DNA of 64,000 nucleotides from Pseudogemmobacter hezensis (lineage in GTDB: Bacteria > Pseudomonadota > Alphaproteobacteria > Rhodobacterales > Rhodobacteraceae): positions 1-64,000 of the forward strand of contig NZ_JABJXT010000009.1 of NCBI RefSeq assembly GCF_013155295.1, in the 5' to 3' direction. The notes under the pieces were generated by a model, which was not told where the DNA came from, ran no database searches, and saw nothing but the letters and a program-made list of their open reading frames with translations. The translations under genes were made by a program, and so were the position numbers. Of this stretch, positions 54,298 through 56,990 are shown piece after piece; position 1 is the stretch's first letter; the number at the start of each line of letters is the position of its first letter.

Positions 54298-54858
54298 TCA
54301 GAGCCCGCGCGAAAGGGCGGCAACCCCGGTCCGGGCGATCTCTGCCAGCCCAAGCGGGCGCATCAGATCGGCAAATGCGTCGATCTTGTCGGGCGTTCCG
54401 GTCAGCTCAAAGACAAAGCTTTCCAGGCTGGTATCGACGACCTTGGCACGGAAGATCTCACACAGGCGCAACGCCTCGATCCGCTGATCTCCCTTGCCGA
54501 CCACCTTGAACAGCGCCAGCTCGCGCTGCACGCTGGGCCCTTCGGCGGTCAGGTCATGGACGGCATGTACAGGCACCATCCGCGACAGCTGAGCCTCTAT
54601 CTGATCGATGACCGCAGGCGTCCCGCGCGTCACGATGGTAATCCGCGAGCGGTGCCCGGTATGATCGACCTCGGCCACCGTCAGGCTGTCGATATTGTAA
54701 CCGCGTCCTGAAAACAGCCCGATCACCCGCGCCAGCACGCCTGGCTCATTCTCGACGATAACTGCCAGCGTATGGCTTTCCTCGACCTCAGAGTGATGGT
54801 CGCGGAGGTCATAGGCCGAATGGCTCGTCGAGCCCTTTTTGATCTTAAGCGCAGACAT
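54298..54858 (-). CDS. ilvN: Acetolactate synthase small (regulatory) subunit
   Basis: A 186-residue regulatory subunit. The N-terminal ACT domain reads HTLAVIVENEPGVLARVIGLFSGRGYNIDSLTVAEVDHTGHRSRITIV, the valine-binding part, and the C-terminal domain includes VVDTSLESFVFELTGTPDKIDAFADLMRPLG. It activates IlvB and gives feedback inhibition by valine. The ATG at 54858 (MSALKIKKGS) is chosen over one five codons upstream. It lies 108 bases after ilvB with palindromic sequence in between. Confidence 0.95.
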   Translation of the reverse strand: MSALKIKKGSTSHSAYDLRDHHSEVEESHTLAVIVENEPGVLARVIGLFSGRGYNIDSLTVAEVDHTGHRSRITIVTRGTPAVIDQIEAQLSRMVPVHAVHDLTAEGPSVQRELALFKVVGKGDQRIEALRLCEIFRAKVVDTSLESFVFELTGTPDKIDAFADLMRPLGLAEIARTGVAALSRGL

Positions 54859-54914
54859 CTGCTGCCCTTTCATTTTCTGTCTCTAAATATCCCGGGGTGG
54901 GACCATTGATTTCG

Positions 54915-54966: not shown

Positions 54967-56715
54967 TCACACCAGCACAGCGCCTGACTTGAACGCATCC
55001 GCATCCGCCGAAAGCAGCATCTCATTATGCGGCTTGCCCGAAGGGATCATCGGGAAACAATTCTCATGCTTCTCAACCAGGCAATCAAAGATCACCGGCC
55101 CCTCATAGCGGATCATCTCCATGATCGCGTCATCCAGATCCTTCGGATCCGAGACCTTCAGCCCTTTGCACCCGAATGCTTCGGCCAGTTTCACGAAATC
55201 GGGCAGGCTTTCCGACCAGCTGTGCGAATAGCGCTCGCCATGCAGCAGCTCCTGCCACTGGCGCACCATGCCAAGCCGCTCATTGTTCAGGATGAACTGC
55301 TTTACCGGCGCGCGGAACTGCATCGCGGTGCCCATCTCCTGCATGTTCATCAGCCAGGAGGCCTCACCCGCCACATTGATCACCAGCGCGTCCGGATGCG
55401 CGACCTGCACACCGATCGAGGCCGGAATGCCGTAGCCCATGGTCCCAAGGCCGCCAGAGGTCATCCAGCGGTTCGGCTCTTCAAAGCCCAGGAATTGCGC
55501 GGCCCACATCTGGTGCTGGCCGACCTCGGTGGTGATGTAGCGGTCCATCCCCTTCGTCAGCGCCTCAAGCCGCTGCAATGCGTATTGCGGTTTGATCGTG
55601 CTGGCCGAGGGCGTGTAGGACAGGCAGTTCACCGCCCGCCATTCATTGATCTGCGCCCACCATTTCGCCAGGCCCTCTTTGTTGACCTTGCGCCCGCGCG
55701 CCTTCCAGATCTTCAGCGCATCTTCCAGCACATGGCCAACATCGCCCAGGATCGGCAGATCGACCCGGATCACCTTGTTGATCGAGGAGGGATCAATATC
55801 GATATGCACCTTCTTCGATTTCGGCGAGAAATCCGCCACCCGGCCCGTGATCCGGTCATCGAAACGGGCACCGACATTGATCATCAGATCGCAGCCATGC
55901 ATCGCCAGATTGGCCTCATAAAGACCATGCATGCCCAGCATGCCCAGCCAGGCCTTGCCGCTGGCCGGATAGGCGCCCAGGCCCATCAGGGTCGAAGTGA
56001 TCGGAAAGCCCGTCGCCTCGACAAACTCGCGCAGCAACTGGCTTGCGCCTTTGCCCGAGTTGATCACGCCGCCGCCGGTATAGAACAGCGGGCGCTCGGC
56101 GGTTTCCAGCATCTCAACCATGCGGGTGATCGCCTCGATATCGCCCTTCACGCGCGGCTGATAATGCGAGACCCTGGCCTTTTCCGGCGCGGTATAGGGG
56201 CCGGTGGCGAATTGCACATCCTTGGGGATATCAACCAGCACCGGGCCCGGACGGCCCGATTTCGCCACATGGAAGGCCTGGTGAATGGTATCCGACAGCT
56301 TGTCGGTCTCTTTCACCAGCCAGTTCATCTTGGTGCAGGGGCGGGTGATGCCGACGGTGTCAGCCTCCTGGAAGCCGTCGGTTCCGATCATGAAGGTCGG
56401 CACCTGGCCCGAAAGCACGATGATCGGAATGCTGTCCAGCAGGGCATCGGTCAGGCCGGTCACCGCATTGGTTGCGCCCGGGCCCGAGGTCACCAGCGCC
56501 ACGCCCACCTTACCGGTGGAACGCGCATAGCCCTCGGCCATATGCACCGCGCCCTGTTCGTGGCGCACCAGGATATGGCGGATGTCGTTTTGCTGGAAAA
56601 TCGCGTCATAGATCGGCAGGACAGCGCCGCCGGGATAGCCGAACACCACCTCGACGCCCTGATCCTTCAGCGCCTGAACCACCATCTTCGCGCCGGTCAT
56701 CACCTTTGCTGTCAT
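54967..56715 (-). CDS. ilvB: Acetolactate synthase large (catalytic) subunit
   Basis: A 582-residue thiamine-diphosphate enzyme that makes acetolactate and acetohydroxybutyrate, the first common step to valine, leucine and isoleucine. The catalytic Glu53 is in LVRHEQGAVHMAEGYAR, followed by SGPGATNAVTGLTDALLDSIPIIVLSGQV. The cofactor motif normally beginning GDG reads GEA here (450–452), followed by FILNNERLGMVRQWQ. The start at 56715 fits the family (MTAKVMTGAKMVVQAL); the longer frame would run into the attenuator hairpin. Expression is controlled by the attenuation leader upstream. Confidence 0.96.
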   Translation of the reverse strand: MTAKVMTGAKMVVQALKDQGVEVVFGYPGGAVLPIYDAIFQQNDIRHILVRHEQGAVHMAEGYARSTGKVGVALVTSGPGATNAVTGLTDALLDSIPIIVLSGQVPTFMIGTDGFQEADTVGITRPCTKMNWLVKETDKLSDTIHQAFHVAKSGRPGPVLVDIPKDVQFATGPYTAPEKARVSHYQPRVKGDIEAITRMVEMLETAERPLFYTGGGVINSGKGASQLLREFVEATGFPITSTLMGLGAYPASGKAWLGMLGMHGLYEANLAMHGCDLMINVGARFDDRITGRVADFSPKSKKVHIDIDPSSINKVIRVDLPILGDVGHVLEDALKIWKARGRKVNKEGLAKWWAQINEWRAVNCLSYTPSASTIKPQYALQRLEALTKGMDRYITTEVGQHQMWAAQFLGFEEPNRWMTSGGLGTMGYGIPASIGVQVAHPDALVINVAGEASWLMNMQEMGTAMQFRAPVKQFILNNERLGMVRQWQELLHGERYSHSWSESLPDFVKLAEAFGCKGLKVSDPKDLDDAIMEMIRYEGPVIFDCLVEKHENCFPMIPSGKPHNEMLLSADADAFKSGAVLV

Positions 56716-56758
56716 CGCCTTCACCGTATTCCTCTCACCGACACCAGGCCGGCCGTTC

Positions 56759-56834
56759 AAAACAAAAAGCCCCCGAGGGTCAATCCGGGGGCGCATGGGG
56801 ATCTGTTATGGCAACCGTTACCGGCCCATGCGCC
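56759..56834 (-). promoter_or_regulatory. Transcription attenuator of the ilvBN operon
   Basis: On the minus strand a terminator hairpin (7-bp GC-only stem, 56786–56792 pairing with 56769–56775) is followed by TTTTTGTTTT. An alternative 10-bp stem pairs GGCGCATGGG (56825–56834, inside the leader peptide codons) with CCCATGCGCC (56790–56799). The second arm overlaps the terminator's 5' arm, so the two structures exclude each other. A ribosome stalled on the Ile-Leu-Val codons leaves the antiterminator free; one reaching the leader stop covers it and lets the terminator form. Confidence 0.88.
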
Positions 56835-56865
56835 AATCCCCGACGACTACAAGAATTCTGTCCAT
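56818..56865 (-). CDS. ilvB leader peptide (Ile-Leu-Val-Val-Val)
   Basis: A 15-residue peptide, MDRILVVVGDWRMGR, ending in TAA. Five consecutive regulatory codons (ATT CTT GTA GTC GTC) measure supply of Ile-, Leu- and Val-tRNA. The ribosome site AGGAGAG lies eight bases before the ATG. The last codons contain one arm of the antiterminator. It is a regulatory peptide with no expected function of its own. Confidence 0.9.
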   Translation of the reverse strand: MDRILVVVGDWRMGR

Positions 56866-56961
56866 CCGTCTCTCTCCTGTGCCGCAAAGCAGCACCCCGT
56901 GTCGCAAGCCCTGCCGCAGGTTTCTCCGGGCGTCTGGCCCGGTTCTGCCTGGTCTGCGGGG

Positions 56962-56990
56962 AAATTAGGCAAGCGCTTTCGGGGCGTCAA
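56962..56990 (-). promoter_or_regulatory. Sigma-70-type promoter of the ilvBN leader
   Basis: On the minus strand TTGACG (56985–56990) and TAATTT (56962–56967) are separated by exactly 17 bases. The start point would be near 56955, about 90 bases upstream of the leader peptide. It fits well as the promoter of the attenuated operon. Confidence 0.7.

Follow-up and report, generated by a model that had tools for sequence, protein, structure and literature searches.

The window analyzed here, a 64,000-nt stretch of DNA from Pseudogemmobacter hezensis, carries on its minus strand the genes for both subunits of acetolactate synthase, ilvB and ilvN, preceded by a leader region. The parts of the locus are as follows, with P1 denoting a stem that would compete with the terminator.

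56962 to 56990, minus strand: promoter-like hexamers, TTGACG (56990-56985) and TAATTT (56967-56962), with a 17-nt spacer
56874 to 56878, minus strand: Shine-Dalgarno sequence AGGAG of the leader open reading frame (ORF)
56818 to 56865, minus strand: leader ORF of 15 codons, MDRILVVVGDWRMGR and a stop codon
56825 to 56834, minus strand: first arm of P1, GGCGCATGGG, in codons 11-14; 96.6% of cells paired in alignment A1
56815 to 56824, minus strand: stop-codon hairpin CCG[GTAA]CGG, nested in P1; the homologous rhizobial hairpin covaries
56790 to 56799, minus strand: second arm of P1, CCCATGCGCC; its last 3 nt (56792-56790) are shared with the terminator
56769 to 56792, minus strand: intrinsic terminator hairpin; changes on both sides in 3 of 5 counted pairs (A1)
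56759 to 56768, minus strand: T-rich tract TTTTTGTTTT, 3' of the terminator
54967 to 56724, minus strand: ilvB, acetolactate synthase large subunit; start at GTG 56724 or ATG 56715; NF006581, 1126.6 bits (cut-off 974)
54298 to 54873, minus strand: ilvN, acetolactate synthase small subunit; PF10369 and ACT domains

In a first-pass annotation, ilvBN had been assigned a compact attenuator with a branched-chain amino acid (BCAA) leader peptide and a competing stem, and our analysis supports this description, including the promoter-like hexamers with 17-base spacing, the 15-residue peptide with Ile-Leu-Val-Val-Val, and the GC stem followed by a T-rich tract. The terminator was recovered by a consensus scan of the leader region, for which shuffled sequences average 0.5, and it sits between the leader ORF and the first gene, as in an attenuator. 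The putative promoter is absent from the scan output for this region. By raw count, a TTGAC lies within 140 nt 5' of the leader in 76 of 76 leaders, the nearest one being 43 to 65 nt from the leader start in 74 of them, 79 nt in L002, and 125 nt in the window. The stretch between promoter and leader (56866-56961, minus strand) is longer in the window than in its relatives; inverted repeats lie within it, CCGGGC..GCCCGG among them.

Among the best 80 ilvB loci from the IlvB search, 75 carry a leader with an xMGR-type block and a stop codon; the five that do not (L030, L031, L063, L075, and L080) were excluded from alignment A1, which with the window comprises 76 leaders. The ORF has 15 codons in 69 of the 76, the window included, and Ile, Leu, and Val account for 396 of the 763 codons between the start codon and the xMGR block. 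As in an attenuator, the ORF has control codons in succession that correspond to the end product. These control codons are rare ones relative to usage in the ilvB genes, which served as the only reference: GTA makes up 55.2% of Val codons in the leaders versus 2.1% in ilvB, CTT 57.5% versus 9.7% of Leu codons, and ATT 59.3% versus 9.3% of Ile codons. A low GC content of the leader could be a partial cause of this skew, though GTT remains rare. The last four leader codons hardly vary at synonymous positions.

A covariance model built from the 76 leaders (R1, E<=0.01) found matches in most of the order (139 of 149 genomes). The region upstream of ilvB was inspected in 4 of the 10 negative genomes; in G388, G490, and G521 it holds a terminator and a BCAA leader that has diverged, and in G386 it holds no such leader. 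Three Rhodobacteraceae loci without an R1 match (L164, L166, and L168) retain a BCAA leader and a terminator with different stem sequences, and the ilvB leaders of L063 and L162 (MSVVLISSG...) have ends that no longer fit the usual first arm of P1. Acetolactate synthase lies downstream of the leader in all 43 further Rhodobacteraceae loci inspected. Across the class, R1 matched 35 of 385 genomes (E<=0.01), 5 from the window's family and 11 through leaders of an MFS gene (L091-L100 and L102). Five of the remaining 19 matches gave no locus, and the other 14 (L101 and L103-L115) were rejected, since neither acetolactate synthase nor the MFS gene follows a BCAA leader there; most resemble gene-end terminators, and L114 precedes a methionine-pathway-like gene. 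Secondary R1 matches in the order (L148-L150 and L152-L155) are likewise unrelated, and L225 is a tRNA plus a terminator.

The first-pass annotation had placed one arm of a 10-bp competing stem in the last leader codons and the other overlapping the terminator. The first arm lies where proposed and is conserved, giving an alternative stem that overlaps the end of the leader ORF, as in an attenuator, but the overlap of the second arm with the terminator is limited to 3 nt. A layout of only three arms was also suggested, which overlooks the conserved stop-codon hairpin. In the Rhodobacteraceae, the stop codon occupies the loop of a CCG[GTRA]CGG hairpin, and a stem of at least 3 pairs surrounds it in 73 of 76 leaders, versus 17.1% for other nearby triplets. 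Rhizobial acetolactate synthase leaders have a stop-codon stem of at least 6 pairs in 27 of 30 cases, versus 0.9% for control triplets.

In rhizobia, covariation supports both elements. In A1, whose rows were selected by a pattern spanning the first arm of P1, P1 shows zero double changes and the stop-codon hairpin two double-change cells. In 59 leaders of a rhizobial family (that of genome G561), 98.3% of P1 cells are paired, and 6 of 9 pairs have changed on both sides, with 41 covarying cells versus 9.0 after shuffling and none of 500 shuffles as high; whole arms have been exchanged, for example GCGCACACG/CGTGTGCGC standing in place of GCGCATGGG/CCCATGCGC. An earlier impression of a frozen P1 sequence was borne out by A1 and by alignment A4, but was refuted by 29 lower-scoring genomes of the rhizobial family. 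The 45 regions of A4 derive for the most part from the 30 loci with the best scores and had been excised by a pattern spanning both P1 arms (no candidate failed it). In 36 distinct sequences, mostly from that family, 5 of 7 stop-codon hairpin pairs have changed on both sides, the third base of the stop codon itself taking part, and the whole structure has 39 covarying cells versus 13.8 in shuffles, again with none of 500 as high. Covariation is just slightly above shuffles in alignment A2 and, in the mixed set A3, not above them on most measures. Alignment of related leaders, one of the checks named in the first-pass annotation, shows covarying terminator pairs in A1, P1 covariation in the rhizobial family, and a leader at nearly all of the best relatives. 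A search for the exact P1 arms succeeds in no more than 23 of 60 relatives and, within the rhizobial family, in 27 of 61 genomes (reversed pattern, 0), and at least three such matches (L313, L319, and L338) look like chance.

The best Rfam match of the window region is RF02502, Atu_C8 ("Rhizobiales sRNA"), at 28.2 bits and E 0.0012, short of the 50-bit gathering cut-off; the only other match up to E 10 was Atu_Ti1, on the opposite strand at E 8.9. In the G561 family, RF02502 matches 59 of 61 genomes at E<=0.001 and exceeds the cut-off in 55 of 61, with 97.0 to 121.1 bits at 15 loci, and acetolactate synthase lies downstream of the best match in all 59 positive genomes (30/30 and 29/29). Two second matches precede a second acetolactate-synthase-like gene (L209) and an MFS gene (L211); the former gene, with its own Atu_C8-type leader, belongs to genome G561, which has another such leader (L216). 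Matches L083-L085 are weak. Since RF02502 also scores 97 to 113 bits on MFS leaders of named Rhizobium plasmids, we infer, partly on this ground, that the G561 family is Rhizobiaceae. A joint model, R2, built from Rhodobacteraceae ilv leaders together with MFS leaders, four of them of rhizobial type, recovers rhizobial acetolactate synthase leaders absent from its training at 30.7 to 56.8 bits. It matches 18 of 20 tested genomes of the window's family, 13 of the 20 having no exact P1 arms, and in a draw of 398 genomes from the phylum it matched 38, of which 24 belong to the window's family and 12 to that of G561, the other two being G107 and a false positive. On this evidence, Atu_C8 appears to be a homologous leader, mainly an acetolactate synthase attenuator of the G561 family, and the window leader with its P1 and stop hairpin likely shares descent with it, convergence being the alternative.

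The same leader is found before an MFS transporter gene. In the class draw, R2 matched 17 of 385 genomes, and in all 12 that belong to other families than the window's the match lies before one MFS gene, which belongs to the Bcr/CflA efflux family by NCBIfam (above cut-off in 3 of 3 scanned). Upstream of ilvB, R2 gave no match in 12 genomes of other families (0/12), and some of these ilvB regions carry another kind of terminator (e.g., L169, L171, and L173). Within the window's family, 11 loci from the R2-tested genomes were inspected; acetolactate synthase follows in 8, and a loose test detects an MFS-like motif in the other 3. By this test, the sole R2 match of L386, L388, and L389 seems to lie 5' of an MFS-like gene and not of ilvB. 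Both leader copies, before ilvBN and before the MFS gene, coexist in four genomes of the window's family (G511, G409, G499, and G487) and in G619 and G746 of the G561 family; the window's own genome has no match to the leader-bearing transporter at E<=1e-20. Relatives of the transporter occur in 25 plasmid records, and of the 13 inspected, 8 have the leader, 2 a TPP riboswitch, and 3 no R2 match. The leader-bearing records include Roseobacter denitrificans, Rhizobium lusitanum, and Burkholderia arboris, the last being the only nonalphaproteobacterial case seen. A tree of 48 MFS proteins (leaving out the duplicates L095, L098, and L211; L271 and L272; L093 and L210, with no ORF found; and L146 and L192) places the 25 leader-bearing ones inside one clade of 29 with support of 100/100, the leader label changing 5 times versus a shuffled mean of 16.4. 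In these leaders, the stop-codon hairpin is weaker (at least 3 pairs in 19 of 25, with one, L190, at a stop codon elsewhere), and at the center of P1 two pairs are disrupted, one in 5 and the other in 7 of 15 leaders.

We infer that this Bcr/CflA clade is tied to BCAA status; alternatively, the pump may be induced by slowed ribosomes. The MFS relatives at L181 and L192 lie downstream of a TPP riboswitch (RF00059, 74.6 and 75.4 bits), which suggests metabolite transport in the clade.

In our proposed mechanism, when BCAA tRNAs are charged, the ribosome would reach the stop codon and cover the first arm of P1, so that P1 could not form and RNA polymerase would terminate. Under BCAA starvation, it would stall at Ile, Leu, or Val codons, leaving P1 and its nested hairpin to fold ahead of the complete terminator; in the window, P1 could be prolonged by the G run (codons 8-10) and reach into the first arm of the terminator, letting transcription run on into ilvBN. 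The manner and strength of the effect of P1 on termination are the least certain step.

Evidence for the switch is conservation and covariation more than single-sequence folding, which gives the window leader a modest gain over shuffles (z of -0.6 to -2.1). When all 197 nt of the leader are folded, the structure of minimum energy has the terminator, with another long hairpin replacing P1. The claim that there is no separate upstream pause hairpin is insecure: one fold of 75 nt contains a hairpin across codons 3-11, but it leaves the first arm of P1 free. The conserved P1 arm overlaps the terminator by 1 to 2 nt in 76 of 76 Rhodobacteraceae leaders (3 nt with the outer pair of the window), and in 59 of 59 G561-family leaders P1 ends 3 to 10 nt 5' of the terminator, with zero overlap.

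We folded the RNA from the edge of the stalled ribosome to the terminator loop, before the second arm, counted the paired nucleotides of the terminator first arm, and took as criterion a difference of 3 nt between starved and fed states, fed meaning a ribosome at the stop codon. Four of five E. coli controls reach it (starved mean/fed: thrL, 8.7/0.1; trpL, 5.0/0.2; leuL, 6.0/0.1; ivbL, 4.4/1.1), and hisL fails (8.8/8.9). In the window, the 8-nt first arm has 7.4 nt paired for a stall at Ile4, 7.1 at Leu5, 4.1 at Val6, 4.1 at Val7, and 1.5 at Val8, versus 2.1 in the fed state, the maximum being the highest of the 76 Rhodobacteraceae leaders and the additional pairs forming between the G run (codons 8-10) and the C run of the terminator. 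The Rhodobacteraceae medians are 3.4/2.4, with 0 of 76 leaders reaching 3 nt by codon average and 18 of 76 by best codon. For the rhizobial leaders, 30 of which were folded, the values are 2.5/3.3, and not one of them reaches 3 nt by codon average or best codon, so that none of 106 pass the averaged test. The stems had been called mutually exclusive in the first-pass annotation; the fold test agrees with this for the window at Ile4 and Leu5, whereas a 7-bp P1 is compatible with the full terminator in the fold, and the averaged test does not support exclusion. At equilibrium, the median terminator probability of the 69 15-codon leaders is 0.78 to 0.85 when the ribosome stalls at codons 2-7 and 1.00 when it stalls further on, and 7 to 26% of these leaders have a probability under 0.5 at early codons; in the 30 rhizobial leaders it is about 0.97 throughout. 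Because real attenuators are kinetic, equilibrium folding is a weak disproof of switching. A classical competing-stem switch is plausible for the window, strongest with stalls at Ile4 and Leu5; in the rhizobial relatives, where P1 and the terminator do not touch, predicted pairing does not account for a switch.

What we read from the DNA is a leader ORF of rare Ile, Leu, and Val codons, a predicted terminator, P1, a nested stop hairpin, and deep conservation, and the window leader is very probably a ribosome-mediated transcription attenuator of ilvBN. Three other readings draw on parts of the same evidence. The ribosome might gate P1 without P1 taking any terminator bases, the folded three-way junction making polymerase pass the terminator by its bulk, by contact with RNA polymerase, or through a protein; phage put RNAs and the EAR element are RNAs that act by contact with RNA polymerase. 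The gap between P1 and terminator in all rhizobial-family leaders, the covariation that maintains P1 and its nested hairpin there, and the lack of sequestration in the fold test favor this reading, which we nevertheless consider unlikely: the exchange of whole P1 arms disfavors sequence-specific recognition, and the strong rhizobial P1 covariation thus lowers the weight of polymerase contact, ordinary terminator pairing is possible in the window and in 18 of 76 Rhodobacteraceae leaders, and the central P1 pairs are broken in several MFS leaders. It is very unlikely that the product that matters is the terminated leader (Atu_C8) as a trans-acting small RNA, as its Rfam entry as an sRNA gene and the trans action of the Sinorhizobium meliloti trp leader RNA and peptide, in the parts of PMC7298713 and PMC10117765 available to us, might suggest, given the cis layout, with BCAA codons, a terminator, and acetolactate synthase or one MFS gene downstream in the loci inspected. 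Most improbable is a functional leader peptide conserved as RMGR, the C terminus of most Rhodobacteraceae leaders listed; RMGR as a peptide signal is disfavored by the conservation of synonymous sites as well, by hairpin pairing that survives changes of the last residue (RMGL or RMGP before the stop), and by MFS leaders ending in RLDR, RPGR, or RRAR.

A bolder and unlikely reading would be that a ribosome-gated three-way junction, with the stop codon in its inner hairpin loop, makes RNA polymerase pass a terminator that it need not overlap. Alphaproteobacteria, and the bacterium of one or more Burkholderia records, would then have put this module to use both at acetolactate synthase and at a BCAA-linked Bcr/CflA transporter misnamed multidrug efflux.

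The idea of the switch is not new, since attenuation of ilvBN and ilvIH is already known in alphaproteobacteria, precedents that agree with the first-pass annotation: the accessible text of PMC4117421 cites Tarleton 1994 for Caulobacter ilvBN, and that of PMC2573895 describes a cis-regulatory element of S. meliloti ilvIH, citing Vitreschak 2004. Both, as far as these excerpts go, place a BCAA leader and attenuation before acetolactate synthase, as in the window. The ilvB-OMG, ilvB-II, and ilvB RNA motifs share with it a BCAA-codon-rich upstream ORF before ilvB (PMC10272879, in the portion consulted), and none of them is among the Rfam matches of the window up to E 10. Atu_C8 has the same layout as the window leader, but in rhizobia the stop-codon hairpin is longer and P1 stays clear of the terminator, compared with an overlap of 3 nt in the window.

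A search of the open literature, outside which most subscription papers lie, returned no recognizable account of Atu_C8 as an attenuator or of an attenuator before a Bcr/CflA gene, and the sections seen of PMC3738593, PMC3927594, PMC4201532, and PMC12218461 hold nothing on either. New here, as judged from sequence comparison, are the apparent identity of the Atu_C8 "sRNA" as a homologous leader, the same putative leader before one Bcr/CflA MFS clade, and the predicted placement of the leader stop codon in a hairpin within P1, with strong rhizobial covariation of both. Also new is that folding of the window supports a classical switch at Ile4/Leu5, but that P1 is separated from the terminator in the rhizobial leaders. 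A curated "sRNA" family would thereby be recast as a cis-acting attenuator, and a transporter clade annotated as drug efflux would be linked through a common switch to BCAA status. The rhizobial leaders, with a conserved stem 5' of the terminator and no overlap, could serve to test whether attenuation can work other than through hairpins that compete. With E. coli thrL, trpL, leuL, and ivbL, the window leader shares leader-peptide control codons, a terminator, and the ribosome position as sensor; the codon-averaged starved-fed difference is 3.3 to 8.6 nt in these four leaders, compared with a median of 0.8 in the Rhodobacteraceae and -0.7 in the rhizobial leaders. In E. coli K-12 (L290), the MFS gene emrD lies near ivbL-ilvB, with small genes between, and the NCBIfam model of emrD also matches the leader-bearing transporters, under its cut-off.
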